A stretch of DNA of 44,831 nucleotides from Actinomycetota bacterium (GTDB lineage: Bacteria; Actinomycetota; Acidimicrobiia; Acidimicrobiales; WLNW01): positions 1-44,831 of the forward strand of contig WLNW01000007.1 in the NCBI GenBank assembly GCA_009699605.1. The letters run 5' to 3'. The position numbers were made by a program, and so were the translations under genes. This document shows positions 14,143-31,767 of the stretch, piece after piece (position 1 is the stretch's first letter; the number at the start of each line of letters is the position of its first letter). Below the pieces are notes generated by a model that saw only the letters and a program-made list of their open reading frames with translations, was not told the DNA's origin and searched no databases.

Positions 14143-14382
14143 ATGGCGACGTACGAGGTGTTGTTGAAGGATGGCTCGGTCGAGCACATCGACGGAGCCG
14201 ACACCTACGAGCAGGAGGGACCGCTCACGACGTTCTTCGAGCTGGCCCCCGATCGCCAGGCGATCGACTGCTGGAGCGTCCGCTTGTCGAGCATCCGCAC
14301 CACCGAGATCGTGCGCATCCGCCGGTCGTCGGGTGCGCACGCCGTGCTGCTGGCGTCCGTCAGCGAGCTACGAGCCGGATAA
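14143..14382 (+). CDS. Conserved hypothetical small protein (79 aa)
   Basis: ATG at 14143 preceded by ggaggtgg RBS; MATYEVLLKDGSVEHIDGADTYEQEGPLTTFFELAPDRQAIDCWSVRLSSIRTTEIVRIRR. Confidence 0.65.
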   Translation: MATYEVLLKDGSVEHIDGADTYEQEGPLTTFFELAPDRQAIDCWSVRLSSIRTTEIVRIRRSSGAHAVLLASVSELRAG

Positions 14383-15970
14383 GCGATGCCGATTCGAAAT
14401 ACTTCGCCGGGTCGGCCTGTACCTCGGGCGACGTACCGGGCCGGATCGCGCTGAGGCGGCCCGCTAGTTCGTCGCACTGGGGGCCCGCCAATCGGTAGCT
14501 GCCGCTCCACACCAGCCAAATGGTTCCCGTACCGGCTGTCGCAAGAATGCGGTCGGCGACAACGCTCACCGAGGAGGCGGCCTGTCGGTCCGCGTAGTCG
14601 ACCCAGTCCACGAAGCGTGGGTCGCCGAGGTCGGGGGTGCGCACTACCCGGACGTCGGTGGGTGCCAGGCGTTGTATCGCAGGGCCAAGTTGGTCCGGAC
14701 ACACCACCACCAGATCACCGGGGCGTGCCGCCCGGCGGAGTTCGGCGCCCACCTCGCCCGCCTGGGTGCGGTCGCTCTTCAACGCAAGGCCGATCGACGC
14801 CAGGCTCAGCATCGCGATCACCGCGAGGGCGCTCACGCGTACGAACGGGGTGGGGAGCCCTGCGAGCCCTGCTCCGACGAGGAGCATGGCGAACGGATAG
14901 ATCACTGAGCTGTAGCGCCCCGCGTATGCCGCGGCCGACAACGTGCTGGCGGCGGCGCCGATCGCAAACGTCGCGCCGATGATCCACAGGGCGCGACGGC
15001 GCCACCCGTCACCCACGGGGCCCAACTCGAGACGGCCTTCGTGTACACGGCCGAAGAGACCCATCGCGAGCAACGCGGCGAGCGCCGCGATCAGCAAGAC
15101 CGCTTCGGGCCCCGTTCCCCCAGCCCAGTCGACGAAGCTTTCGCTCACCACGCGCGTCGGCCGAGATGCTTTGGCCCACGGTGTTCCGGTGTGTGCGGCT
15201 TGGTAGGCGAACGCCGATACCCAGGGGACGAACCAGACGCCCCCGGCCGCGATCGCGACGGCCGCCTCGAGCGAGCGGCGGCGTTGTGCAGGGGTCGGGG
15301 CCCGCCAGGCGGACCACAAGATCCCGAGGCCGGTGGCCGCGAGCAGAAACATGGCCCAGTAGTGGGTCAACAGCAGGGCGCCGCTGACGAGCCACAAGCC
15401 GGCAAGCACTCCGCGCCGCGAGCGCGCCGGGTCGAGAGCTCGGTCGAGGAGCCACCATCCGACCAACGCAAGCAACGACACGAGTTCGTACATACGTGCC
15501 TCGCTCGAGTAGCGGACCGCGAATGGCGACACGGCAACGATCGCCACCGTGAACCCGGCCAGCCTTGGGCCGCCGTGACGGCGGCCCACCACCGCGACCA
15601 TTGCGAGGAGGCCGAGCCCCACGATCCCCGAAAGCGCCCGCACTGCGCCCGCACCAGTTCCGAAGATTTCGATCCACCCGTGGAGCACGAAGTAATAAAG
15701 AGGTGGATGTCCATCGCGGCGCAGCAAGCCCCCGATCTCTGCAAGCGGCGCGGCAGCAATGTTGACGGTGAGCGCTTCGTCGAGCCACATCGGGCTCGCT
15801 GGGGCGAACCGCAGCACCGAACCCACGACGGCGCACAGCGCGATGAGGGGCCATTCGACCACAGACGCGAGGCCTGCGATGCGGCTGGGCGTTCGCTCTT
15901 CGGCGTTGAGGCTTTCGGGGCGGCTAGACACGCACGACACCTTACGCTGGGGCTTGGCGCGGCCCGCCAA
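14360..15970 (-). CDS. GT39/ArnT-like integral-membrane glycosyltransferase
   Basis: Multi-TM ORF with PMWLDEALTVNIAAAPLAEIGGLLRRDGHPPLYYFVLHGW (GT-C D-E motif region) and YSSEARMYELVSLLAL. Alternative GTG start at 15931. Confidence 0.85.
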   Translation of the reverse strand: MAGRAKPQRKVSCVSSRPESLNAEERTPSRIAGLASVVEWPLIALCAVVGSVLRFAPASPMWLDEALTVNIAAAPLAEIGGLLRRDGHPPLYYFVLHGWIEIFGTGAGAVRALSGIVGLGLLAMVAVVGRRHGGPRLAGFTVAIVAVSPFAVRYSSEARMYELVSLLALVGWWLLDRALDPARSRRGVLAGLWLVSGALLLTHYWAMFLLAATGLGILWSAWRAPTPAQRRRSLEAAVAIAAGGVWFVPWVSAFAYQAAHTGTPWAKASRPTRVVSESFVDWAGGTGPEAVLLIAALAALLAMGLFGRVHEGRLELGPVGDGWRRRALWIIGATFAIGAAASTLSAAAYAGRYSSVIYPFAMLLVGAGLAGLPTPFVRVSALAVIAMLSLASIGLALKSDRTQAGEVGAELRRAARPGDLVVVCPDQLGPAIQRLAPTDVRVVRTPDLGDPRFVDWVDYADRQAASSVSVVADRILATAGTGTIWLVWSGSYRLAGPQCDELAGRLSAIRPGTSPEVQADPAKYFESASLIRLVAR

Positions 15971-16080: not shown

Positions 16081-17523
16081 ATGCCTGAACACTCGTCTGC
16101 TGATCCGTCATCGTTCGCGCCAGTCGTCATTGGTGCCGGTCCCGCCGGCTTGACGGCGGCCTATCAATTGCACAAGCACGGCGTGTCATCGACCATCCTC
16201 GAAGCCGACAAGGTCGTCGGCGGCATCAGCAGAACGGTCGAGCGCGACGGATGGCGCTTCGACATCGGTGGCCATCGGTTCTTCACCAAGGTGAAGCCCG
16301 TCGAAGAACTCTGGCACGAGATCCTTCCCGACGAGGACTTCTTGATGCGGCCTCGGAAGAGCCGTATCTACTACCAGGGCAAGTACTACGACTACCCGTT
16401 GAAGGCGTTCAACGCCCTCGGCAACCTGGGGATCCTCGAAGCATTCCGCTGTGTCGGATCCTACGCGTGGGCGCGGGTGCGCCCGCCGAAGGACCAGAAC
16501 AACTACGAGGGCTGGCTCGTTGCCCGCTTCGGCTGGCGGTTGTACCGAACGTTCTTCGAGACCTACACCGAGAAGGTGTGGGGGATGAAGGTCGCCGACA
16601 TGCCGGCCGACTGGGCCGCGCAGCGCGTGAAGAACTTGTCGCTGATGAACGCGATCACCAACGCCATTCTCCCGAAGCGGAACCAGAAGGACATCACCTC
16701 GTTGATCGAGGAGTTCCAATATCCGAAGCTCGGGCCCGGCATGATGTGGGAGCGGTGCCGCGATCTGGTCGTGGCCAAGGGCAGCACGGTGGCGATGAAC
16801 ACGCGTGTCGAGCAGGTCAAACACCGCGACGGCAAGGCAATCGCCGTTCTGGCGCGCGACGCCGATGGCCACCTCGTCGAACACCCGTGCTCGCACGTCG
16901 TTTCGAGCATGCCGATTCCGCACCTCCTGAAGGCCATGAGCCCGCAGCCGCCCGCCGAGGTGCTGGCCGCCGCCGACGGGCTGAAGTTTCGCGATTTCCT
17001 CACCGTGGCACTCGTGGTTCCCGAAGCGAGCGGCTTTCCCGACAACTGGATCTACATCCACGATCCCAACGTTGAGGTGGGCCGAATCCAGAATTTCGGG
17101 TCCTGGTCGCCGTATCTGGTGAAAGATGGCCGCACCTGCCTCGGGCTCGAGTATTTCGTAGACGAAGGCGACCGGCTTTGGAATTCCGCCGACGAGGACC
17201 TCGTCGCCCAGGGCACCCGCGAGCTCGCGGCGCTCGGGCTTTCGCAGCCGTCGGACGTCGAGTCCGGCTACGTGGTGCGCATGCCAAAGGCGTATCCGAT
17301 CTACGACTACACCTACAAGAGCAATGTCGACGTGCTTCGTGGCTGGTTGGCCGAGCATGCGTCGAACGTGTACCCCGTCGGCCGCAATGGCATGCACAAG
17401 TACAACAATCAGGATCACTCCATGTACACAGCAATGCTCTCGGTCGAGAACATGCTTGGTGCTTCGCACGACATCTGGTCGGTGAACGTCGAAGAGGAAT
17501 ACCACGAAGAGGCGAAAGGCTGA
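16081..17523 (+). CDS. NAD(P)/FAD-dependent oxidoreductase (HemY/UDP-galactopyranose mutase-like)
   Basis: 480 aa: PVVIGAGPAGLTAAYQLHKHGVSSTILEADKVVGGISRTVERDGWRFDIGGHRFFTKVKPVEELWHEILPDEDFLMRPRKSRIYYQGKYYDYPLKA. Confidence 0.88.
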   Translation: MPEHSSADPSSFAPVVIGAGPAGLTAAYQLHKHGVSSTILEADKVVGGISRTVERDGWRFDIGGHRFFTKVKPVEELWHEILPDEDFLMRPRKSRIYYQGKYYDYPLKAFNALGNLGILEAFRCVGSYAWARVRPPKDQNNYEGWLVARFGWRLYRTFFETYTEKVWGMKVADMPADWAAQRVKNLSLMNAITNAILPKRNQKDITSLIEEFQYPKLGPGMMWERCRDLVVAKGSTVAMNTRVEQVKHRDGKAIAVLARDADGHLVEHPCSHVVSSMPIPHLLKAMSPQPPAEVLAAADGLKFRDFLTVALVVPEASGFPDNWIYIHDPNVEVGRIQNFGSWSPYLVKDGRTCLGLEYFVDEGDRLWNSADEDLVAQGTRELAALGLSQPSDVESGYVVRMPKAYPIYDYTYKSNVDVLRGWLAEHASNVYPVGRNGMHKYNNQDHSMYTAMLSVENMLGASHDIWSVNVEEEYHEEAKG

Positions 17524-17524
17524 C

Positions 17525-19930
17525 GTGACTTCGGGGTCTGGCACGCAACGCATCGACCCCGACGCGCAACAGCGATCGAATCCCGCCCACCTGGCGGCGG
17601 CCGCATCACCCGTAGCACTTCGACGAGCGCTTGCGCTCACAGCCGTCGGGTCGTTCGCGTTGCTGTGCACCCGGGCCGCTATGGCCGTTGATCCGAGCGC
17701 GAGTTCGCTGCCACGAAATGTGTTCGTGCGCGTCGACGCCGGAGCGGCCCTGGTGGTGGGCGCGGTTGCGGTGGCCGCAATCGAACGTCGACGTGCCGAC
17801 GGCAGAACGCGTGCACTGGTGCTCGATCTCGCGAGACTGTGGGTCCTCTGGTTCCTTGTGGTCGCGGTCAACTCGGTGCTGGTCCACCGCGCCACGATGA
17901 GCGACGCCCTTTCGACCGCGTTCACCTTCCGAGCACATGACTCGGCACAGCTGGGGCTCGGTGTCGGGCGCGTGATCCTCGCGGTGGCGATCGCGTTGGT
18001 GCTCGCGTCGCTCGTGGTGGCATTCGAGGCGCATGGGCGTCGGGTGATCTGGCTCGTCGGTGTGCTGGCTGCGGTCGGATGGGGCGCACGAATCGCCGAA
18101 GCTGAAATGTCATCCGGCTTTGCACGCAGCTTGCTTTCGCTCGGTGCGTTCGCTGATTACATCGCGGCCGGCTTCGCCGTTTCGTCGATCTCCCGTGCAC
18201 TTCTCCGCAACGGGCCCCGTCCGATGAGCCGATTCGCCGTCGTGGCGGCTGGGCTACTCGTGGTGCTGGGCCTGGGCGCGGCCGTGTTCCTGGTTGGTCC
18301 GCTGGCCCCGGACGGAGCAGGGGTCTTCGATCATGGGCTGTGGCGTGCGGTGTGCGGTACATCGGTGGTGGCCGGTGTCCTCATCGGCTCGCTGGCCCGG
18401 CCGGCACTGATGTCGTCGACCGGCGTATTGATCGAACGTTCGCTCGCCGTCGCGGCTCCCGGCTTGTTGCTGGGACATGAGGGCATGTTCGTCGCAGTGG
18501 TTCGTCGCTATCCAGAGCGCCTGCACGAGGATGCACGCGGCGTGTGGCTCGCCGCGAACGCCAGCCCGGCCATTGTGTGGGCCGTGATCTTCGCCGGGTC
18601 GTTCGGTGTGCTCGTTTCGTGGATGGTCATCGCGATGCACCATCGGCGCACCGTGCGATCGTTGCTACCGATGCCGCTGACCGTTGCAGCGCTCGCGTCG
18701 TTCGGGTTGCTCGTGCGATTGGTCACGCTGTTCAACGTGGCGCCCGAGCGCACCGACGGCGGGGACCCGCGTTTTTACCATGTCACCGCGAATCTGCTCG
18801 CGCACGCTCGCAGTTTCCCCGAGCCGTTGAACTGGCTGAATGACGAGACAATGCGACCCACCGCGTTGCACGGTCCGCTTTACCCCATCGTCTTGTCGGT
18901 GAGCTCGCGTTTCGGTGGAACCCAGTACATCGACCACAAGCTGCTGTCGCTGCTGATCGGCGCGGGTATCGTCCTCGTGGTCATTCTTCTGGCCCGCGAG
19001 GTCGCCGGGTCGGGCGTCGCGCTCGTTGCCGGGTTTCTGGCCGCGGTGTATCCGAACTTGTGGATCCTCGACGAGATCCTGTTTCCCGAGCCGCTGGCCG
19101 CGCTCCTGACGACCCTGGCCGTATTGTTCGCGTATCGGTGGCGGGCGTCGCCTTCGTGGCGTGCCAGCGCGGTGCTGGGCGGCACCATTGCCCTGGGCGC
19201 GTTGGCGCGAGGCGAGGGCATCCTGCTGCTCGGCCTGCTCGTGCTCCCCTGCGTGGTCCTCCCCAAGTCGTTGTCCCTCGGCACGCGGGTGAAGCATCTC
19301 GTGATGGTGGGCCTGGTGTTCGGCCTCGTGATCTCGCCATGGTCGTTGCGAAATGTGCGCGTCTTCGTCAACGTGGTACCGCTGTCGACCAACAGCAACG
19401 AACTGCTGGTTTATGCCAACTGCGACACCGTCTATTCCGGCGGGCTCCTCGGCTACTGGGACTTCTACTGTCAAGAACGCATCCGATCCGCGCAGGGCGA
19501 GTTCCCGGGCGACGAATCACAAACTTCGCTTCGCTGGCGCGATGCCGGCCTGGACTATGCCGGCGATCATGCAGCCGAGCTGCCAAAGGTGCTGGCCGCC
19601 CGCGCGCTGCGGCAGTGGGAGTTCTTTCGACCCGGTCAGAACCTCGCACTCGGGGAGGACGAAGGACGTCACCGGGCGTCCGCGACGGTGGCGCTCGCGA
19701 TGTATTACCCGATGCTCGCGCTCGGGATCGTGGGTGCCTTCGTGCATCGGCGCGCGCGTCGCTGGTTGTTGCCACTGATCGTGCCGTTCCTGGGCGTCAC
19801 CGTGGTCGCGCTGTACGCCTACGGGAACACGCGATTTCGCGCCCCGGCCGAGCCTGCGCTCTGCATCCTCGCGGCCATCGGTCTGGCGGCCGTGGTCACC
19901 CGCGTGCGCGGCGGCGATTCGTCCGCCTAG
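17525..19930 (+). CDS. Large membrane protein: N-terminal multi-TM acyltransferase-like region plus C-terminal GT39-like glycosyltransferase
   Basis: 801 aa, GTG start 1 nt after the preceding stop. C-terminal half has DPRFYHVTANLLAHARSFPEP...ALHGPLYPIVLSVSSRFGGTQY...YPNLWILDEILFPEPLAALLTTLAVLFAYRW. Confidence 0.82.
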   Translation: MTSGSGTQRIDPDAQQRSNPAHLAAAASPVALRRALALTAVGSFALLCTRAAMAVDPSASSLPRNVFVRVDAGAALVVGAVAVAAIERRRADGRTRALVLDLARLWVLWFLVVAVNSVLVHRATMSDALSTAFTFRAHDSAQLGLGVGRVILAVAIALVLASLVVAFEAHGRRVIWLVGVLAAVGWGARIAEAEMSSGFARSLLSLGAFADYIAAGFAVSSISRALLRNGPRPMSRFAVVAAGLLVVLGLGAAVFLVGPLAPDGAGVFDHGLWRAVCGTSVVAGVLIGSLARPALMSSTGVLIERSLAVAAPGLLLGHEGMFVAVVRRYPERLHEDARGVWLAANASPAIVWAVIFAGSFGVLVSWMVIAMHHRRTVRSLLPMPLTVAALASFGLLVRLVTLFNVAPERTDGGDPRFYHVTANLLAHARSFPEPLNWLNDETMRPTALHGPLYPIVLSVSSRFGGTQYIDHKLLSLLIGAGIVLVVILLAREVAGSGVALVAGFLAAVYPNLWILDEILFPEPLAALLTTLAVLFAYRWRASPSWRASAVLGGTIALGALARGEGILLLGLLVLPCVVLPKSLSLGTRVKHLVMVGLVFGLVISPWSLRNVRVFVNVVPLSTNSNELLVYANCDTVYSGGLLGYWDFYCQERIRSAQGEFPGDESQTSLRWRDAGLDYAGDHAAELPKVLAARALRQWEFFRPGQNLALGEDEGRHRASATVALAMYYPMLALGIVGAFVHRRARRWLLPLIVPFLGVTVVALYAYGNTRFRAPAEPALCILAAIGLAAVVTRVRGGDSSA

Positions 19931-19987
19931 CGCGACGCCTGCCCCGTGCGCTCGTGCGCGCAAGCGTGGGGCTACGATCCGGCCATC

Positions 19988-21451
19988 ATGGTTGCCGACG
20001 CGCTTCTCTCCGGCTATGGCTCGCTCTCGGTCGTGATGCCTTGTTACAACGAAGAGGCCACGCTCGCCGAGGTGGTCGAACGTGTGCTCGCCAGCCCGTT
20101 CACCGGTGAACTGATCATCGTGGATGATGGCTCGGCCGACCGAACGCTTGCCATCGCCCGTGAGGTTCGCGATCCGCGGGTACGTGTGTTCGCCCAGCCA
20201 TTCAATATGGGTAAGGGTGCAGCGTTGCGACGAGGCATCCAGGAGGCCACGCTCGCATTCGTGGTGGTTCAGGACGCCGACCTCGAGTACGACCCCAACG
20301 AGTACGCGCGTCTTCTCGCACCATTACTCGAAGACAAGGCCGACGTCGTGTACGGCTCGCGGTTCGCTGGTGGTCAAGATCGCCGGGTGTTGTACTTCTG
20401 GCACAGCATCGGCAATCGACTCCTCACGCTTTTCTCGAACGCGCTCACCAATCTCAATCTCACCGACATGGAGACGTGTTACAAGGTCTTCCGGCGCGAG
20501 ATCATCCAGAGCATCGACATCGTCGAAGATCGGTTCGGATTCGAGCCCGAGATCACCGCAAAGGTCGCCCGCGGGGGCTGGCGGGTCTATGAGGTTCCCG
20601 TGTCGTATCAGGGACGCACCTATGCCGAGGGCAAGAAAATCACGTGGCGCGATGGCGTCCGTGCCATCTACTGCATGGTTCGCTATTCCGGGCTGTGGCC
20701 GCGCCGCAGCTCGTTGCCTTCGTCGACCACCCGCGCATTCGCCCACGCCGATCAGGCCCTCGAAGAAGTACTCGACGATCTCGACAGCTCGACACCGAAC
20801 TACGCCGATTGGATCGTGTCGATGCTCGAGCCGCATCTCGGTCGCCGTGTGCTCGAGATCGGAGCCGGTCACGGCACCATCACCGCCCGGCTGGCGATCG
20901 ACGGTCGCCAGGTCGTGGCGACCGACCTGTCCGAACGGTGTCTGGTCGAACTCAAGGAACGCTTCGAGGGCCATCCCGCAGTCGAGGTCCGCCATGCGAC
21001 GGTAGATGATCTTACGGTCGACGACCCGTTCGACTCGGTCGTGCTCGTCAACGTGCTCGAACACATCGAAGACGACCTCGAAGTGCTGAAGCAGATCTAC
21101 GCGCGGCTTCGCCCCGGCGGCAAGGTGGTGATCTTCGCGCCCGCGCTCGAGGCCCTCTACAGCAGATTCGATGACGAGATCGGCCACGTCCGGCGGTACC
21201 GGCGGTCGCAGTTGGCTACCACCTTGTCGCGAGCCGGGTTTGCCGTGCCCGAGGCCCGGTACGTGAACATGCCCGGCGCCGCCGCGTGGTGGGTACTCAG
21301 CCGGCAACTCGGCCTCACGCCGACGAAGTCCTACTTCGCGTCGACATTCGATCGACTGTGCGTTCCCGCCATTCGGCGGTTCGAAGCGCGTCGCCAACCG
21401 CCGTTCGGACAATCCCTTCTGTGCGTCGGCGAAGTTCCCACCACCACGTGA
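19988..21451 (+). CDS. Bifunctional GT2 (DPM1-like) glycosyltransferase / class I SAM-dependent methyltransferase
   Basis: ATG at 19988. N-term [21 protein letters not shown]...[11 protein letters not shown]...[14 protein letters not shown]...VYGSRF; C-term [32 protein letters not shown]...[16 protein letters not shown]. Confidence 0.92.
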
Positions 21452-21455
21452 CCCG

Positions 21456-23456
21456 GTGCCTGTGACGAGCGCACAGGGCATCGTCGCCACGGCGCCGTCG
21501 TCGGCGGGCTCGACGACGCGCCACGGGTACACGTACCTGCCCGCGCTCGATGGCCTGCGCGGTCTCTCGGTGGTCGCAGTGCTCTTCTTCCATGCGGGGC
21601 ACCTGCGCGGCGGGTTCCTCGGCGTCGACCTCTTCTTCGCGCTTTCCGGATTCCTCATCACCACATTGCTCATCCGCGAGGTCGAGTCGACGGGTCGCGT
21701 CGACCTGCGCAAGTTCTGGGGTCGGCGCATGAAGCGCTTGATGCCTGCGGCGCTCGCCACACTGATCGTGACCACCGTGCTGCTCGCCTGGTACGGCCAG
21801 GTGGCCGAGCAAGCACATGCGCTGAACGACGGGCCGTGGGCCCAGTTCTATGTCGCGAACTGGCATTTGCTGCGGGGTTCCGGCGGCTATTGGGCTTCGT
21901 TCGCGCTACCACGTGCGTTCGGCCACATGTGGAGCCTGGCGATCGAAGAGCAGTTCTACATGGTGTGGCCCGTCGCAATGCTGGTCTGCGCTCGCATCGG
22001 CGCGCGCTACCAGCGGGTGTTGGTCGGTCTGATCGTGGTGGGATGCGCCGCGTCAGTGCTCACCATGGTGTTGCTGTACGACCAGGCAAATCCGACGCGC
22101 GTGTACATGGGGAGCGACACGCGCGCGAGTTCCATTCTGGTCGGGGCGCTGTTCGCCACGACGGTGATGCGGCGGGCGGTTTCTGCCGTGCACCGTGCGA
22201 TCGGGCCCCTGATGCAATGGTTGTGCGTCGGTCTCGTGGTCGTTCTCGGTATCGGCTGGGCGACGATCGACGGCCCGAAGTCATCGTGGCTCTTCCAGGG
22301 CGGGTTGTTCGGTCACTCGGCGGCGGCGGCGCTGCTTGTGGCGTTGTGTGCTCAAACGCCGCATGGGCGCGTGTCGCGCGTGCTCGGTACCCCTCCGCTG
22401 CGGCTGCTCGGGACCTTGTCCTACAGCTTGTACCTGTGGCATTGGCCCATCTATGTGCTCGCCAACGAGGAACGCACTGGGCAATCGGGATGGTCACTCC
22501 TGGGGCTGCGTCTTGTCGTGTCACTGGCGGCGGCGGTGGCCTCGAAGTACTTGATCGAGGATCCCGTCCGATTCCACACCGGCTGGCTTCGCGGGAGCCC
22601 GGCGGTGTTGTCCTTTGTCGGCGTGATGGCGCTCGGTGCACTGTTCTGGGCGATGTTGCCCCAGCCCGATACTGCGCCGGCCGCGTTCGATCCGGCGCGG
22701 ATCGAGGCGTTGCGGCCCACCACCAGCACCACCGCCTTGCCCGCCGCGCCAGGGTCGAACCTCGGCATCCCGGGCGCAACCTCGACCACATTCGGAAAGC
22801 AGCGCATCTCGAAAGTGCTGTTTCTCGGGGACTCGATCGCGTTCGACGAACAGCCCGCAATCGAGGCCGCCATCCGCGCCGCGAAGGTCGAGGTGGAGGT
22901 CGCGGCCTTCCCGGGCTTCGGGGTTTTGAGCGAGAAGGTCGATGTCTGGCCCATCTACACCGACACCATCGCGCGCTTCGCGCCCGACCTGGTGATCTAT
23001 CAGCTGTCGGTCTGGGATCTTGGAACCGTGGCGCAACAGCGGGTCGCCTATGAGCGATTGGTCCAGCTGGTACGTGGCAACGGCTCGTCGTTGCTCTTCG
23101 TGACTCCGCCGCCGTTTGCGGCGATGGATCCGAAAAGCACGCTTCCGCAACTGCCCGACATCGCAGTGTCGTTGGCGCAACGAGATCCCACGCGCATTGG
23201 CTTTGTCGAGAGCGTCGCCGCATGGGGTATTGCGTTCGCGCTGGACATCGACAAGGACGGCGTTCCCGAGCGAAAGCCCGATGGCACGCATATCTGTCCT
23301 GCCGGCGCCGCACGCTTCGCGGCGTGGCTCACCGACGAACTCGCGCGGCGCTACGACGGATTCACGCCGGCCCCGGTGCGCGAGTGGGCGCTGGGAGGGT
23401 GGCGCGACGATGAGCGATACCGAGTCCCGTTGGGTATCTGCGCGAACGTCAGGTAG
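21456..23456 (+). CDS. Acyltransferase-3 (OafA-like) with C-terminal SGNH hydrolase domain
   Basis: 666 aa: YLPALDGLRGLSVVAVLFFHAGHLRGGFLGVDLFFALSGFLITTLL...YSLYLWHWPIYVL, then KVLFLGDSIAFDEQP...KPDGTHICPAGAARFAAWL (GDS and DxxH). Confidence 0.93.
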   Translation: MPVTSAQGIVATAPSSAGSTTRHGYTYLPALDGLRGLSVVAVLFFHAGHLRGGFLGVDLFFALSGFLITTLLIREVESTGRVDLRKFWGRRMKRLMPAALATLIVTTVLLAWYGQVAEQAHALNDGPWAQFYVANWHLLRGSGGYWASFALPRAFGHMWSLAIEEQFYMVWPVAMLVCARIGARYQRVLVGLIVVGCAASVLTMVLLYDQANPTRVYMGSDTRASSILVGALFATTVMRRAVSAVHRAIGPLMQWLCVGLVVVLGIGWATIDGPKSSWLFQGGLFGHSAAAALLVALCAQTPHGRVSRVLGTPPLRLLGTLSYSLYLWHWPIYVLANEERTGQSGWSLLGLRLVVSLAAAVASKYLIEDPVRFHTGWLRGSPAVLSFVGVMALGALFWAMLPQPDTAPAAFDPARIEALRPTTSTTALPAAPGSNLGIPGATSTTFGKQRISKVLFLGDSIAFDEQPAIEAAIRAAKVEVEVAAFPGFGVLSEKVDVWPIYTDTIARFAPDLVIYQLSVWDLGTVAQQRVAYERLVQLVRGNGSSLLFVTPPPFAAMDPKSTLPQLPDIAVSLAQRDPTRIGFVESVAAWGIAFALDIDKDGVPERKPDGTHICPAGAARFAAWLTDELARRYDGFTPAPVREWALGGWRDDERYRVPLGICANVR

Positions 23457-23465
23457 GCGCGAGCG

Positions 23466-24074
23466 TCAACGAAGACGGGCTGCGACCGCCCGACCGATGC
23501 GGTCGAAACCGCGCGACGTGATGACACCCGACGCATCGCGCACGAGCGCTTCGCCGTCGTCGGCGCACGGGCCCGACGTTTCGCGGTCCCACCACTCGCA
23601 CGGACGCGACGTCGACGCGGGCTCGACGCCCACGAGTAGGCCCGAATCGACGACCCGAGCACCAAATGGTGCGGCATCGGCCGGTACACCTGGTTCGAGC
23701 ACGATGACAACCGTGCGATGTTCGCGTCGGAGGGTGGCGACGAACTCGCGGAGATCGCAGCCGTTGACGGCCGACGCGAGCACCACTGCCTGAGGATCAC
23801 GACGTTCGATTTCGGCGGCCAATTGCACGACGTTGCACGAGGTGGCGTCGGGGGCCGCGCGACGAAAGCTCTGTCCGATGTCGCGAACGTAGGTCGCGAG
23901 CGGACGCTCCGCTCGGGTGAGTAACGGATCGGACGCGGAGAGCACGTCGAGTCGGTCGTCGTGGCCTGCGATCACCGGCCACATCCACCAGGCGCTGAAC
24001 GCAAGGACGCACAGCGCACCAAGCGCCCAACGTGGGACCAACTGGCGAGGGTTGCGCATCGCGGTCCAGAACAT
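23466..24074 (-). CDS. Membrane-anchored degenerate SGNH-like protein
   Basis: 202 aa with an N-terminal TM (WALGALCVLAFSAWWMWPVIAG), then LDVLSASDPLLT...DPQAVVLASAVNGCDLREFVATLRR...VIVLEPGVP...GVITSRGFDRIGRAVAARL. SGNH-like order but GDS and DxxH absent. Confidence 0.6.
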   Translation of the reverse strand: MFWTAMRNPRQLVPRWALGALCVLAFSAWWMWPVIAGHDDRLDVLSASDPLLTRAERPLATYVRDIGQSFRRAAPDATSCNVVQLAAEIERRDPQAVVLASAVNGCDLREFVATLRREHRTVVIVLEPGVPADAAPFGARVVDSGLLVGVEPASTSRPCEWWDRETSGPCADDGEALVRDASGVITSRGFDRIGRAVAARLR

Positions 24075-24186: not shown

Positions 24187-25395
24187 ATGAGCGACGCTTT
24201 GCCGCACCCCTCCCCCGACGAGCATCTGCCCGCTGCCGCTCTGGCGCGCGCTGCACTCGCGCAGTTGGCAGAATCCGCCGGCATCCGACGGGTGCACGTG
24301 CTGGCCTGGCGAGATCTGGCCGATGTCGAAGCGGGCGGTTCCGAGCTCCACGCAGCAACAATTGCTCGTCACTGGGCGGCGGCGGGTATCGACGTCACGC
24401 TGCGCAGCTCGTATGCGCAGGGCTCTCCACCCACGGCAGTGCGCGACGGCTACCGAGTGATACGACGAGCCGGTCGCTACGCCATCTTTCCGCGCGCGGT
24501 GCTGGCCGAACTCGTGGGCCGCCACGGACCGCGCGATGCGCTCGTCGAGATCTGGAACGGCGTCCCGTTCTTCTCGCCTCTCTGGTGTCGCGGTCCACGC
24601 GTCGTGTTTCTGCATCATCACCACGAAAAGATGTGGCCGCTTGTTCTTCCGGCTCGCTACGCACATCTCGGTTCACTGCTCGAGACCCGCATAGCGCCGC
24701 CGATGTATCGAGCTGCCAGCATCGTGACCCTCTCGGAGTCGTCGAAACGCGAGTTGGTCGACCACATGCACTTGAAGGCTTCGAGCATCCGTGTCGTGCC
24801 GCCCGGCATCGACGAGCGGTACACCCCGAGTGGCACCAAAAGCGATCATCCGCTCGTGGTTTCCGTCGGGCGCCTGATGCCGTCGAAGCGCTTCGACGTC
24901 CTCATCGACGCGCTCGACGTTGTGCGCCGCACGCGCCCGGACACGGAACTCGTGATCGTCGGCGAAGGCTACGAACGTGATTATCTACAGCAACACATCG
25001 CGGGTCGAAACGCCAGCAGCTGGGTGCGTCTCGTCGGTCGGGTGAGCGATGAGGAACTACTTTCGCTCTACCGCCGGGCATGGGTCGTTGCGAGTGCATC
25101 GATCGCAGAAGGCTGGGGCATGACGCTCACCGAAGCAGCAGCGTGCGGCACGCCCGCCATCGCCACATCCATCGCCGGCCATCGCGACGCAGTGGCCGAT
25201 GGCCAGAGCGGCTTGCTCGTCGATGACGATCATGAGCTTGCCCAACGACTCCTCGAGGTTCTTTCGGAGCCGGTTCTGCGGGATCGGCTCAGCGTGGGCG
25301 CACTCGCGCACGCCGCTCGATACACCTGGGCGGCTACGGCACATGGTGCGATGCAAGCGTTGGTCGATGACGCGAAACGCCACCGTCATCGATGA
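24187..25395 (+). CDS. Glycosyltransferase family 4
   Basis: Starts at ATG 24187: VHVLAWRDLADVEAGGSELHAATIARHWAAAGIDVTLRSS...IRVVPPGIDERYTPSG...VVSVGRLMPSKRFDVLIDALDVV...ASIAEGWGMTLTEAAACGTPAIAT. Confidence 0.93.
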   Translation: MSDALPHPSPDEHLPAAALARAALAQLAESAGIRRVHVLAWRDLADVEAGGSELHAATIARHWAAAGIDVTLRSSYAQGSPPTAVRDGYRVIRRAGRYAIFPRAVLAELVGRHGPRDALVEIWNGVPFFSPLWCRGPRVVFLHHHHEKMWPLVLPARYAHLGSLLETRIAPPMYRAASIVTLSESSKRELVDHMHLKASSIRVVPPGIDERYTPSGTKSDHPLVVSVGRLMPSKRFDVLIDALDVVRRTRPDTELVIVGEGYERDYLQQHIAGRNASSWVRLVGRVSDEELLSLYRRAWVVASASIAEGWGMTLTEAAACGTPAIATSIAGHRDAVADGQSGLLVDDDHELAQRLLEVLSEPVLRDRLSVGALAHAARYTWAATAHGAMQALVDDAKRHRHR

Positions 25396-28300
25396 CCGAC
25401 ACGAGAGCGCTTCGTAGAGACCCGCCGGGGGCGCCATCCGAGCCGCGACACGATCTGAGCCTGTTGCTCTACGCGGTGCTGTGTTATGTGCCGTTGCTGC
25501 TTACCGCACCAGGGAAGATCGCGGCGGACACGAAGGCCTACTTGTATCTCGAGCCCGGCCGTTTGCTGTCTCGCGCTGGTTGGTTGTGGGAACAAGATGT
25601 CGCTGCGGGCACGATCACGCACCAGAACATCGGATACCTGTTCCCGATGGGCCCGTGGTACTGGGTGTTCGATCGCCTCGGTTCGCCCGATTGGGTGGCG
25701 CAACGACTTTGGCTCGGGACTGTGCTGTTCGTCGCCGGGGCGGGCGTGCGTTGGCTGTGTCATCGTCTCGACCTTCACGGAACGCCCGCGACCGTCGCCG
25801 GCATCGTGTATCTCGCGAGCCCTTACGTCGTGCCGTACTTCGGTCGCACGTCGGCGCTCCTTCTGCCGTGGGCCGCGCTGCCGTGGTTGCTCGCACTGGT
25901 GGTTGTCGCGCTCCGAACCAATGGTTGGCGAGCCCCGGTTCTCTTCGCGCTGGTCTTCACCTGCGTCAGCGGCACGAATGCATCCTCGCTGGTGTTCATC
26001 GCGATTGGACCGCTGCTGTGGGTCCCCTACGCGATCTGGGGTCTCCGCGAGATCGATGTGGCACGCGCTCGCCGTGTATCAATCCGACTCGCGTTGACGA
26101 CCATCCCTTTGCAGCTGTGGTGGGTGGCAGGGCTTCGGATCCAGGGACGCTACGGCCTCCCGATTCTCCAACTTACCGAGAGCGTCGACACGGTCGCGCA
26201 GACATCCACCGCCGCCGAAGTGAGCCGAGGGCTGGGCTACTGGTATGACTACGGCCGCGACGGATTGTCGCCGTGGACCAATGCGGCGCGCGGCTATACC
26301 CAAAGCCTCTGGCTGATCGCGGCGAGCTTCGCGGTGCCCACCGTTGCCCTGCTGGCCGCGTGTTTTACGCGCTGGCGTCTGCGCGGCTATGCCATCGCCA
26401 TTTTCGCCGTCGGGCTCGTGGCCGGTGTGGGGACGTATCCGTATCACGATCCTCCATTGTTTGGTGCGGTCGTGAAAGCAACGACGGAAACGGCGGGAGG
26501 GCTCGCACTACGGAACTCTCCGCGTTCGGTGCCGCTCATCGGCCTTGCGTATGCGCTCTTGCTCGCGGCCGGTCTTCGGGCCGTCATCGAATGGACACGC
26601 GCGAACGGCCGTGGGCGCACGCTTGCGCGAGGTTTTGTCGGTGGCGTTGCGATCCTCGCCGTCGCGAATGCGCAGCCGCTGTTCACCGGTGCGTTCGTCT
26701 CTCCCGATCTTCGATTTCCCGAGGAGCTCCCGGCGTATGTGCGCGACGCCGCCGCAACGCTGGACCGCGTGCCGCACACCTCGCGCGTACTCGAACTGCC
26801 GGGCTCCGATTTTGCTGCATATCGGTGGGGTCAGACACAAGACCCGGTGATCCCCGGGCTCCTCGATCGACCCTGGGTCGGGCGAGAGTTGACGGCGTTC
26901 GGCACGCCGGGTTCGGTCGACCTGGTCCGCGCCCTCGATCGTCGGGCCCAAGAGGGCGTGTTCGAGGCGGCGGCCGTTGCGCCGATCGCGAGACTGCTCG
27001 CAGCAGGCGATGTGCTCGTGCGCAATGACATCCAATTCGAACGGTACCGTGGGCCTCGACCGCGCACCCTGTGGCCCGCACTTGCGGGAGCAGGTGGGTT
27101 TGGCCCCACAACGGCGTATGGCACGCCCTTTCGGAGTGTGGCTGATCCCCGGCGTCCGCTGATCGACGAGATCGAGTTGGGCACGCCGCCGAGCGTTGCC
27201 GATCCTCCCCCACTTGCGTCTCGTGTGGTGCTCGAGCCAAACCCTTTGGTCGGGGCCAAGTCGATCGATGCGGCGACGATCGTTGCCGGCGATGGCGATG
27301 GCCTGGTGGACCTCGCCGTTTCGGGCCTCATCGACCCGACGCGTGCGGTGTTGTACAGCGCCACATTTGCTCGCAACGATGCAACATTGCGCACATTGGC
27401 CGCGAACGGCGCCGCGCTCGTTGTCACCGATACCAATCGCAAACGTGCACAGCGATGGGGGACGGTACGGGAGAACAACGGATACACCGAGCCCGCGAAT
27501 TCGGGCGCCCTCGTGGCCGACACCAAAGACGCCCGATTGATGGTCTTTCCTGACGCGGGCACCAATGCGTACAGCGTTGCTCGCTATGTCGGCGTGGCCG
27601 ACATCACCGCAAGCGCATACGGCAACATCGTGGCCTACTCGCCTGAACGTCGCGCCGCGAACGCGCTCGACGGAGACCTTCGCACGGCATGGGAGGTTGG
27701 CGGTTTCAGCGACGTCCTCGGGGAGCGTCTGCGGATCACCCTGGACACGCCGGTGACGGTCGATCATTTCGATCTCGCACAGTCGAATGGCAACAGGTTC
27801 ATCACGGTGCTCGGCGTGCGGCTCGATGGTGGTCCGCTGCGGCGCATCGCGCTGGATGATTCGTCGCATTCGGATGCCGGACAGCGCATCGACCTCGGCA
27901 GTAGCCGCACGTTTTCTGTGCTCGAACTATCGATCGAAGACGCGAACGTGTCGGGGTTGCAGAACTACCTCGGGTGGAGCACGGCTGGTATCCGCGAGGT
28001 CAACATCGTCGGCGTCACGATGGAGGAGCAGGTCGAGCTCCCGCGCGATCTGCTCGCCACGTTGGGGCCCGCTTCACGGACGAACTCGCTCGCAATCGTG
28101 CTAACCCGCCAGCGTGCTGACGCAGGCGAACCTTTTCGTGCCGACCCCGAGCAGCTTCTCGTCCGCTCGTTCGAATTGCCGACGCAACGGACCTTCTCGT
28201 TGCGCGGGCAGGCGCGTATCGAGACGCGCGTCGATGGCCGACTGATCGATCAGGTGCTCGGTCGCAGTGGCACGGGTGCCGGATTCATCACCGCGAGTGG

Positions 28301-29786
28301 AGGCGATTTCCTGGCCGGGTCGCTGCGGATGCGGCCGTCGAGCGCGGTCGATGGCGATCCGACCACGTTCTGGTCGCCCGGCCTTGGCGATCAGGTCGGT
28401 CGATCATTCCATGTCGAGTTGCCCTTTCCGATGTCGATTGCCTCGCTCGATCTCGCGATCGTGGCCGATGGTCGCCACAGCGTGCCGACACAACTCACGC
28501 TCGACGCCGAGGATGGAACGTCGAGAGTCGTGAACCTCCCGCCGATCGAGGACGATTCAAGCCCCGAGCATGTCTGGAGGGTTACGCTCCCGATTGCGCC
28601 GGTGACGACATCGGGATTGCGAGTTCGTGTCACGGGCGTACGCGAAGTCACAACGACCGAATACTTCAGCGGCGATCGGATCGCGTTGCCGGTTGGCATC
28701 GCCGAGCTCGGTCTGCCGATCAATCGCCCACTCGCCGGACTCACGACCGAGATGCAGAATGGTCTCGGTGGAACGTGCCGCGGTGATCTGCTCTCGATCG
28801 ACGGTTCAGCCGTGGGGATACGGCTTGTTGGCCCGACCGCCACTGCTCTGGCGGGCGGTGCACTCGAGATCGTCACGTGCGATGGTGCGCCGTTGACGCT
28901 GGGGCCAGGCGCCCACGTCCTGCGAACCGCGAAAGGCCTCGACACCGGAATTGCCCTCGATCGTCTGGTGCTCGAGAGCGCGGCCACACCGAGCGCGGCC
29001 ACATCGAATGCGGTGCCGAGCGTCGAACTGCGCTCGCAATCACGGCTTCTGTACCAGGCCGACGTCCAGGGCGCGACGGGTCCGTTCTGGCTGATCCTGC
29101 ACGAGAGTCTGAGCGACGGATGGCATGCAACGATCAAGGGCGTCGACCTCGGCGCACCAACGATGATCGACGGGTACGCGAACGGATGGCTCGTCGATCC
29201 GACACGGTTCGGTTCGGACTTCCGAGTGAAGTTGCAGTGGACGCCGCAACGCGTCGTGTGGGTCGCGATTGCCGCTTCGGCGTTCGCGCTGGTGGTGTTG
29301 GTCGTCGTCGCGTTGGTGTTGTGGCGACGCGAGGCGCGCGCGACTGATGGTCGCCCACGCTGGACCGCCGACGTGCGTGGACCCACGCCGAAGGTCGAGA
29401 TTCGATCAGCTGAGGGCCGACCCGTTGGCGTACGCCGCGCGCTGCGCGACGCCGCGTTGTTCGGGGTGCTGGGTGGCGTGCTCGGCGGCGTAAGCGTGGC
29501 GGTGCCCGTCGCGCTGTTGGTGTTCATGGGCCGACGATTCTCTGCGGGCCGCATGGTGCTGCGTGTCGTTCCATGGGCGGCCTTCGTCTTCGTGAGCTTC
29601 TGGTACACGGCCAAGCAGTACCGAAACCACTACCCGCTCGGAGTCGAGTGGCCGCAGTCGTTCGCGGCGACGCACTCGATGGTGCTCATTGCAATGATGG
29701 TGTTGGTCGCCGACGCGGTGCTGTCGCGAGCGCATCCTGCGTCGCCGGCCACGTCGCGCGACCCCCTGGCCGACCCAGCCGGCTGA
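25392..29786 (+). CDS. AftD-like alpha-(1->3)-arabinofuranosyltransferase family membrane protein with discoidin-like domains
   Basis: 1464 aa overlapping the GT4 stop (ATGA). N-term LLLTAPGKIAADTKAYLYLEPGRLLSRAGWLWEQDVAAGTITHQNIGYLFPMGPWYWVFDRLG resembles AftD/DUF3367. Two carbohydrate-binding-like blocks (RRAANALDGDLRTAWEV..., SSAVDGDPTTFWSPG...). C-terminal TMs. Confidence 0.82.
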   Translation: MTDTRALRRDPPGAPSEPRHDLSLLLYAVLCYVPLLLTAPGKIAADTKAYLYLEPGRLLSRAGWLWEQDVAAGTITHQNIGYLFPMGPWYWVFDRLGSPDWVAQRLWLGTVLFVAGAGVRWLCHRLDLHGTPATVAGIVYLASPYVVPYFGRTSALLLPWAALPWLLALVVVALRTNGWRAPVLFALVFTCVSGTNASSLVFIAIGPLLWVPYAIWGLREIDVARARRVSIRLALTTIPLQLWWVAGLRIQGRYGLPILQLTESVDTVAQTSTAAEVSRGLGYWYDYGRDGLSPWTNAARGYTQSLWLIAASFAVPTVALLAACFTRWRLRGYAIAIFAVGLVAGVGTYPYHDPPLFGAVVKATTETAGGLALRNSPRSVPLIGLAYALLLAAGLRAVIEWTRANGRGRTLARGFVGGVAILAVANAQPLFTGAFVSPDLRFPEELPAYVRDAAATLDRVPHTSRVLELPGSDFAAYRWGQTQDPVIPGLLDRPWVGRELTAFGTPGSVDLVRALDRRAQEGVFEAAAVAPIARLLAAGDVLVRNDIQFERYRGPRPRTLWPALAGAGGFGPTTAYGTPFRSVADPRRPLIDEIELGTPPSVADPPPLASRVVLEPNPLVGAKSIDAATIVAGDGDGLVDLAVSGLIDPTRAVLYSATFARNDATLRTLAANGAALVVTDTNRKRAQRWGTVRENNGYTEPANSGALVADTKDARLMVFPDAGTNAYSVARYVGVADITASAYGNIVAYSPERRAANALDGDLRTAWEVGGFSDVLGERLRITLDTPVTVDHFDLAQSNGNRFITVLGVRLDGGPLRRIALDDSSHSDAGQRIDLGSSRTFSVLELSIEDANVSGLQNYLGWSTAGIREVNIVGVTMEEQVELPRDLLATLGPASRTNSLAIVLTRQRADAGEPFRADPEQLLVRSFELPTQRTFSLRGQARIETRVDGRLIDQVLGRSGTGAGFITASGGDFLAGSLRMRPSSAVDGDPTTFWSPGLGDQVGRSFHVELPFPMSIASLDLAIVADGRHSVPTQLTLDAEDGTSRVVNLPPIEDDSSPEHVWRVTLPIAPVTTSGLRVRVTGVREVTTTEYFSGDRIALPVGIAELGLPINRPLAGLTTEMQNGLGGTCRGDLLSIDGSAVGIRLVGPTATALAGGALEIVTCDGAPLTLGPGAHVLRTAKGLDTGIALDRLVLESAATPSAATSNAVPSVELRSQSRLLYQADVQGATGPFWLILHESLSDGWHATIKGVDLGAPTMIDGYANGWLVDPTRFGSDFRVKLQWTPQRVVWVAIAASAFALVVLVVVALVLWRREARATDGRPRWTADVRGPTPKVEIRSAEGRPVGVRRALRDAALFGVLGGVLGGVSVAVPVALLVFMGRRFSAGRMVLRVVPWAAFVFVSFWYTAKQYRNHYPLGVEWPQSFAATHSMVLIAMMVLVADAVLSRAHPASPATSRDPLADPAG

Positions 29787-30642: not shown

Positions 30643-31767
30643 ATGCTGTTGACGAGCTTCGACGACTACCCGATCCATCAGATGCCGGTTCCGGTGGCCC
30701 AGACGGGGACCTCCGACCGCAATCACTACGACCGCTACTTCTTCAACGGGTATCTACCCGAGGGTGAGGTGTTCTTCGGTGGCGCTATGGGGATCTATCC
30801 GAATCGGCAGGTGATCGATGCGGCGTTCAGCATCGTGTACCAGGGCCGACAGAAGAACCTGCACGTGTCGGGGCGAGCGCCCCTCGATCGCGCTATCACC
30901 GAGGTCGGTCCGATTCGCGTCGAGATCATCGAACCGATGAAGCGCATCCGCATGATCGTGCAGGGCGGCGAGCACGGCATCGAGGCCGATGTCACGTTCG
31001 ACGTGCGCTCGGTGGCCATTGCCGAGGAGCGCCAGACGCGCAACAGCGGCGCGATCCAGCTCATGGACGTCACGCGGTTCACCCAGAACGGCACCTGGGA
31101 AGGATGGGTGGCCATCGACGGCACGCGCATCGAGATAGATCCGCGGGTCGCGCGGGGTACCCGCGATCGCTCGTGGGGCATACGCGGCGTGGGCGAACCT
31201 CAGGGCGGCGTGCCGAACACGCGCATGCCGCAGATCTTCTGGCTGTGGGGCCCGTGCAACTTCGACGACGAGTGCACCTATATAGCGATCTTCGATGACG
31301 CGGAGGGCACGCGCTTCTATCAGCACTCGCTTGTCGCTCCTGTGCGAACGCATCGTGATGATCCGCACATCGATCACGGCGGCATCGCACAGAAGTTCCG
31401 CGACACCCCGTTCTCGATCGACTATCAGTCGGGCACGCGACGTGCCCGTACCGCGCGCATGGAGCTTCACCCCTACGGGACGGGCGCAGTGCGCGAACTC
31501 ACCTTCGAGACGCTCTACACGTTCCAGATGTGCGGCATCAGCTACTCACACCCCGAGTGGGCCCACGGCACGTGGAAAGGTGAGCTCGCGGTCGGCGTCG
31601 ACGAGTGGAACCTGGCCGATGTCGACACCCTCGCGCCGCACAACCTGCACATCCAGAACTTCTGTCGCGTGTCGCTCGATGGCAAGCCCGGTTGGGGCGT
31701 GCTCGAGCAGATCGCGATCGGTCCGCATCACCCGACCGGGCTCACGGGCGCGCTCGACCCTGCGTGA
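30643..31767 (+). CDS. Conserved hypothetical protein (beta-rich, hydratase/lipocalin-like suspected)
   Basis: 374 aa continuous ORF with RBS (ggtggaggg): MLLTSFDDYPIHQMPVPVAQTGTSDRNHYDRYFFNGYLPEGEVFFGGAMGIYPNRQVIDAAFSIVYQGRQKNLHVSGRAP. No family confidently assigned. Confidence 0.8.
   Translation: MLLTSFDDYPIHQMPVPVAQTGTSDRNHYDRYFFNGYLPEGEVFFGGAMGIYPNRQVIDAAFSIVYQGRQKNLHVSGRAPLDRAITEVGPIRVEIIEPMKRIRMIVQGGEHGIEADVTFDVRSVAIAEERQTRNSGAIQLMDVTRFTQNGTWEGWVAIDGTRIEIDPRVARGTRDRSWGIRGVGEPQGGVPNTRMPQIFWLWGPCNFDDECTYIAIFDDAEGTRFYQHSLVAPVRTHRDDPHIDHGGIAQKFRDTPFSIDYQSGTRRARTARMELHPYGTGAVRELTFETLYTFQMCGISYSHPEWAHGTWKGELAVGVDEWNLADVDTLAPHNLHIQNFCRVSLDGKPGWGVLEQIAIGPHHPTGLTGALDPA

Follow-up and report, generated by a model that had tools for sequence, protein, structure and literature searches.

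AftD is a giant enzyme known for its part in making cell-wall arabinan in the tuberculosis bacterium; it is essential in mycobacteria and is usually counted among the arabinogalactan machinery. The window analyzed here (the whole stretch of 44,831 nucleotides of contig WLNW01000007.1, from an Acidimicrobiales metagenome-assembled genome, or MAG) encodes an AftD-like protein, which raises the question of which donor and which acceptor such an enzyme would use in a lineage that the first-pass annotation had taken to be probably devoid of mycolates.

An AftD-family protein with conserved active-site residues

The gene and its parts are as follows; antisense open reading frames in this high-GC window (e.g. 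26508-27869, minus) were disregarded.

25392..29786, plus strand: AftD-family GT-C glycosyltransferase, ATG start, 1464 aa (PF11847, AftD fold, PDB match)
25494..27491, plus strand: its GT-C domain (PF11847 match)
25527-25529, 25533-25535 and 26178-26180, plus strand: codons of the invariant GT-C residues D46, K48 and E263
27603..27941, plus strand: first discoidin/CBM-like block, residues 738-850 (PF00754 and a discoidin-type model)
28311..28712, plus strand: CBM_AftD block, corresponding to the third CBM of AftD, residues 974-1107 (PF24607)
29262..29723, plus strand: C-terminal hydrophobic (transmembrane) segments (hydropathy)

The open reading frame encodes a real member of the AftD family, as seen directly in its profile match, its predicted fold and its active-site residues. 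The GT-C_AftD profile (PF11847) matches residues 35-700 with 294.6 bits (cut-off 26, E 1.4e-87), which places the protein inside the AftD/DUF3367 family, whose likeness the first-pass annotation had seen in its N-terminus; it is the one PF11847 protein that we found in the source genome. The two discoidin/CBM-like blocks also lie where they had been placed, at about 27.60-27.94 and 28.31-28.71 kb. Within the first, the F5/8 C-type domain (PF00754) matches residues 738-804 with 33.8 bits and a discoidin-type model matches residues 751-850 below threshold (34.9 bits, cut-off 38); in the second, the AftD-type carbohydrate-binding module (PF24607) scores 48.1 bits against a cut-off of 27. The proposed C-terminal transmembrane helices are supported by three hydrophobic segments near residues 1291-1309, 1359-1377 and 1426-1444.

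In a phmmer search, the only sequence relatives in the PDB were AftD entries (6w98, E 5e-36, and 6wbx), with M. abscessus AftD as the best match. AlphaFold, given an 81-sequence alignment, predicted residues 21-1195 with a mean pLDDT of 93.1 and a pTM of 0.91, and the three AftD cryo-EM entries rank first in a structure search with this model (E 9e-55 to 3e-49, TM ~0.7-0.75). The leading match, 6w98, has an E value of 9e-55 and a TM score of 0.75, whereas the first non-AftD match has an E value of 3e-08; CBM32 proteins and oligosaccharyltransferases rank far behind.

We judged the catalytic residues from conservation, comparing 28 window-type with 13 Mycobacteriales-type AftD proteins. Both groups conserve D46, T47, K48, R105, E263 and R374, and of the 45 columns conserved in each of them, 42 hold the same residue; the groups differ in that H77, R378 and G697 of the window type are Asn, Lys and Ser in the mycobacterial one. 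Both D46 and E263 are thus kept, and loss of all catalytic acids was not seen. The protein might instead lack catalysis and act as a scaffold whose CBMs anchor an envelope complex, given the large CBM domains and the proposal that MmpA, which is partly homologous to AftD, anchors a protein complex at the membrane (PMC8698533), but the strict conservation of D46, K48, R105, E263 and R374 across both AftD clades makes this very improbable. The ACP-contact residue Arg1389, which is mutated in PDB 6wby, aligns with a Leu in our protein, in a region where the alignment is weak.

The resemblance to AftD (Rv0236c / cg3161; PDB 6w98, 6wbx, 6wby) thus extends over the GT-C domain, the CBMs, the C-terminal transmembrane helices and the fold, whereas identity to the Mycobacteriales proteins is only ~23-25%. 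In a GT-C domain tree built with a quick method, the window protein falls within a clade of Acidimicrobiia and Frankia (support 100), and a second clade (support 100) holds the Mycobacteriales-type AftD proteins together with a few Acidimicrobiia paralogues. Judged from this separation of sequences, the window protein is not an orthologue of mycobacterial AftD. Among named genomes, its relatives come mostly from Acidimicrobiia (Candidatus Microthrix, Aquihabitans sp. G128, IMCC26256 and many MAGs), with Frankia in addition. Several MAGs titled Bifidobacterium breve (L065, L071, L081, L111, L114, L117, L126) carry AftD loci of the Acidimicrobiia type, and their titles look wrong.

GT4 and MtrP as companions of AftD

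The strongest feature of the locus is a conserved glycosyltransferase gene that was absent from the first-pass annotation:

24187..25395, plus strand: GT4 glycosyltransferase, cg3166/Rv0225 homologue (the frame opens at 23917; the likely start is the ATG at 24187)

Its linkage to and co-occurrence with AftD, both observed directly, are our main new result and lie outside the coordinates that the annotation had covered. In the window, the GT4 stop codon and the AftD start codon share an ATGA overlap. In 44 of the loci examined, Frankia included, a GT4 with 47-64% identity lies near AftD, usually directly upstream; in a minority of loci it is a few kb away, on the opposite strand or not nearby (G207, G140, G008, G038). 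Among 297 genomes drawn from the phylum, this GT4 is present in 41 of the 44 that are PF11847-positive and in 5 of the 253 others, and 39 of the 41 AftD–GT4 pairs lie within 25 kb. A second, partly overlapping genome set gave 27 of 28 AftD-positive genomes against 0 of 15 others. Pairwise distances of the two proteins correlate (r 0.71, Mantel p 0.0005), although, because the genomes share ancestry, the p values for the association overstate independence.

Within genus g77, three genomes of the 297-genome draw (G145, G166, G199) have both genes, whereas four members known from the DPPR synthase list (G208, G219, G230, G282) are absent from both the AftD and the GT4 hit lists; from this both-or-neither pattern, the pair appears to have been gained or lost together. 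For two of the five sampled genomes with GT4 only (our G128 and G154), remote AftD/MmpA-like GT-C genes stand beside the GT4. A GT4 of this group has as neighbors, at L246:2125-7417 (minus), a 996-aa protein that carries a CBM4_9 domain and, C-terminally, a SepF domain, and also an MmpA-like protein that scores 165 bits (cut-off 210). GT4–AftD fusions suspected in L089 and L112 proved to be merely overlapping open frames.

Five mycobacteria-like genomes (G076, G113, G251, G166, G123) each have a single GT4 match at E<=1e-30, in every case near aftD, and by position this gene is cg3166/Rv0225. The WRD...GGSE and EX7E regions are common to this gene and the window GT4, whereas the window GT4 directly precedes and overlaps AftD and its mycobacteria-like counterpart lies up to ~18 kb away. 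In the literature, cg3166/Rv0225 is given as a putative glycosyltransferase of the C. glutamicum aftD-tmaT locus (PMC7775120) and is counted among the uncharacterized genes of that locus (PMC8698533); our searches for Rv0225 with glycosyltransferase, for DUF3367 and for Acidimicrobiia with arabinan found no papers.

A second companion from the same corynebacterial locus is MtrP (Rv0224c / cg3168), which, like TmaT and MmpA, has a role in trehalose-mycolate transport (PMC8698533). MtrP homologues gave strong matches in 14 of 28 AftD-positive genomes and in 0 of 15 others, apart from one weak 58-bit match in G028. They lie beside AftD in several genomes, for example side by side in L099, and in G021 (L022:4378-9939, minus) a window-type AftD is fused, within a single 1854-aa open reading frame, to an MtrP-like methyltransferase domain (residues ~1565-1830). 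In contrast, MtrP was not found in the source genome, where no Pks13 was found either. TmaT-like AT3 acyltransferases occur in 16 AftD loci, though AT3 proteins are common generally.

Mycolate, arabinan and sugar-donor genes

With Pks13, DPPR synthase and DprE1 queries taken from the mycobacterium-like genome G076, we found no full-length Pks13 in the source genome or in the 14 related genomes tested. AftA above the cut-off was not found in the source genome, only in G076. Emb was found in none of 39 relatives, and only in G076 and as a fragment at a contig edge of the source genome. The non-mycolate setting proposed earlier agrees with these results, and an arabinan setting defined by Emb, AftA and DPA genes was not assumed, since these genes were not found in the source genome. 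The Emb-like fragment (L062/L149; G000 C232:22-150, minus) matches over 43 residues with 25.8 bits, against a cut-off of 25, and may reflect gene loss, a chimeric assembly or contamination. Nor were DPPR synthase and DprE1, the arabinose-donor genes, found in the source MAG, which is 96% complete and in 277 contigs. The window genome thus differs from those of mycobacteria in that no AftA, full-length Pks13 or donor genes, and no Emb beyond this fragment, were found in it, and its AftD-like protein differs in not keeping Arg1389 at the (weakly) aligned position.

The enzyme could nevertheless be a DPA-dependent arabinofuranosyltransferase as in mycobacteria, with polyprenyl-phosphoryl-arabinose being made and the DPPR synthase and DprE1 genes hidden in an assembly gap of this fragmented MAG. 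These two genes adjoin each other in many relatives (e.g. L197 in G007 and L199 in G029), and G140, whose AftD groups with the window's, has DPPR synthase, so that its absence from the source MAG could reflect such a gap. Across the phylum, AftD and DPPR synthase are clearly associated (28/44 against 15/253 in the 297 genomes), if more loosely than AftD and GT4, but in 40 genomes of the order the link is weak (14/21 against 8/19). Moreover, several well-assembled AftD-positive genomes argue against this explanation: DPPR synthase was not found in G033, and G251, a complete genome with GT4, MtrP and an AftD of the canonical type, yielded no match for DPPR synthase or DprE1, nor for Emb, AftA or a full-length Pks13. 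Since there is also no Emb or AftA to begin an arabinan, we give the DPA explanation somewhat less than an even chance. The adjacency of DprE1 and DPPR synthase is widespread in the order, extending to genomes without AftD, Emb or AftA.

Other genes of the row bear on a different donor:

14360..15970, minus strand: divergent GT-C (PMT_2-like) membrane protein, 536 aa (PF13231, 36.3 bits; related genes in 11 loci)
16081..17523, plus strand: PRK07208-type flavoenzyme resembling eukaryotic UDP-galactopyranose mutase (UGM) (NF005548, 800 bits)
17525..19930, plus strand: GT-C (PMT_2-like) membrane protein, 801 aa (PF13231, 27.9 bits)
19946..21451, plus strand: GT2 (polyprenyl-phosphate-glycosyltransferase-like) fused to a class I methyltransferase (PF00535 and Methyltransf_11/12/25)
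21456..23456, plus strand: AT3-type membrane acyltransferase, 666 aa (PF01757, 97.8 bits; related genes in ~25 loci)

The nearest solved relatives of the flavoenzyme are eukaryotic UGMs (4u8l, E 8e-24). The alignment with them spans most of the protein, which retains the GGH motif, the NQDHS stretch and several of the active-site arginines; at what we take to be positions His68 and Gln107 in the fungal enzyme, it has Lys. It is conserved in 17 clustered loci and, as far as homology can tell, hints at furanose chemistry. The donor might then be another polyprenyl-phosphate sugar, such as galactofuranose or a hexose, which the GT2 and this UGM-like enzyme would make. The presence of both proteins in the AftD gene row would fit such a donor, as would the arabinose-donor genes not found in the source MAG and the canonical-type AftD that G251 carries without DPPR synthase or DprE1. 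The GT2–methyltransferase, however, is AglJ-like only far under that model's cut-off and is no regular neighbor of AftD elsewhere (4 loci), and active-site residues identical to those of mycobacterial AftD argue for a similar donor, leaving this alternative possible but rather unlikely. The same GT2–methyltransferase was considered as an MtrP equivalent and set aside, having no BLAST match to MtrP at 1e-6. Downstream of AftD, the window also encodes an Rv3169-family protein (30643-31767, 371 bits).

A predicted envelope-glycan pathway

The reading that we favor, and consider probable, is that the AftD-like protein is an extracytoplasmic polyprenyl-phosphate-sugar transferase that is paired with the GT4 on an envelope glycan, independently of mycolates and arabinogalactan. 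The placement of an extracytoplasmic transferase and a cytoplasmic GT4 on the same glycan is supported by the protein anatomy and the gene linkage; the activity, the furanose donor, the lipid-linked acceptor and the division of labor are inferred. On the cytoplasmic side, the GT4 would add a sugar from a nucleotide donor onto a lipid-linked glycan. After export, the translationally coupled AftD-like enzyme, predicted to be a catalytically intact GT-C transferase of the Acidimicrobiia/Frankia clade working outside the membrane, would lengthen or branch the glycan, drawing on a sugar (probably a furanose) carried on polyprenyl phosphate, with its CBMs holding the chain. The product would be an envelope glycan, either lipid-linked or part of the wall, for which neither arabinogalactan built by Emb/AftA nor mycolic acids would be required. 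Besides the family evidence, the tie to the GT4 and the arabinogalactan and mycolate genes that were not found, we count in favor of this pathway the UGM-like flavoenzyme in the same gene row and the remote GT-C genes beside GT4 in two GT4-only genomes. Against it we count the missing DPPR synthase and DprE1, the minority of loci in which the GT4 is distant or on the opposite strand, and an ACP contact that is not kept at the weakly aligned position. Our confidence in it overlaps with that in the two donor alternatives, because the one thing that sets these apart from it is that they name the donor.

Since AftD is nearly always accompanied by this one uncharacterized GT4 across actinobacteria, the two look like an old unit for building sugars. 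Both, and MtrP too, are present where we found neither a mycolate condensase nor AftA, and on this basis we hypothesize that the aftD locus may predate the mycobacterial wall. More tentatively still, and leaning somewhat against it on balance, we suggest that AftD, the cg3166/Rv0225-type GT4 and MtrP formed an ancient envelope-glycan pathway that preceded mycolic acids and arabinogalactan, in which the ancestral AftD donor need not have been DPA and to which the mycolate-transport roles of the corynebacterial aftD-tmaT genes would be secondary or indirect. The AftD–GT4 pair in bacteria without arabinogalactan machinery offers a simpler system for finding the acceptor and donor of AftD, and it nominates Rv0225, an uncharacterized gene of a mycobacterial cell-wall locus, as a partner of AftD. 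A further question is why MtrP, a protein studied for its part in mycolate transport, accompanies AftD, and is once fused to it, where no mycolate condensase was found.
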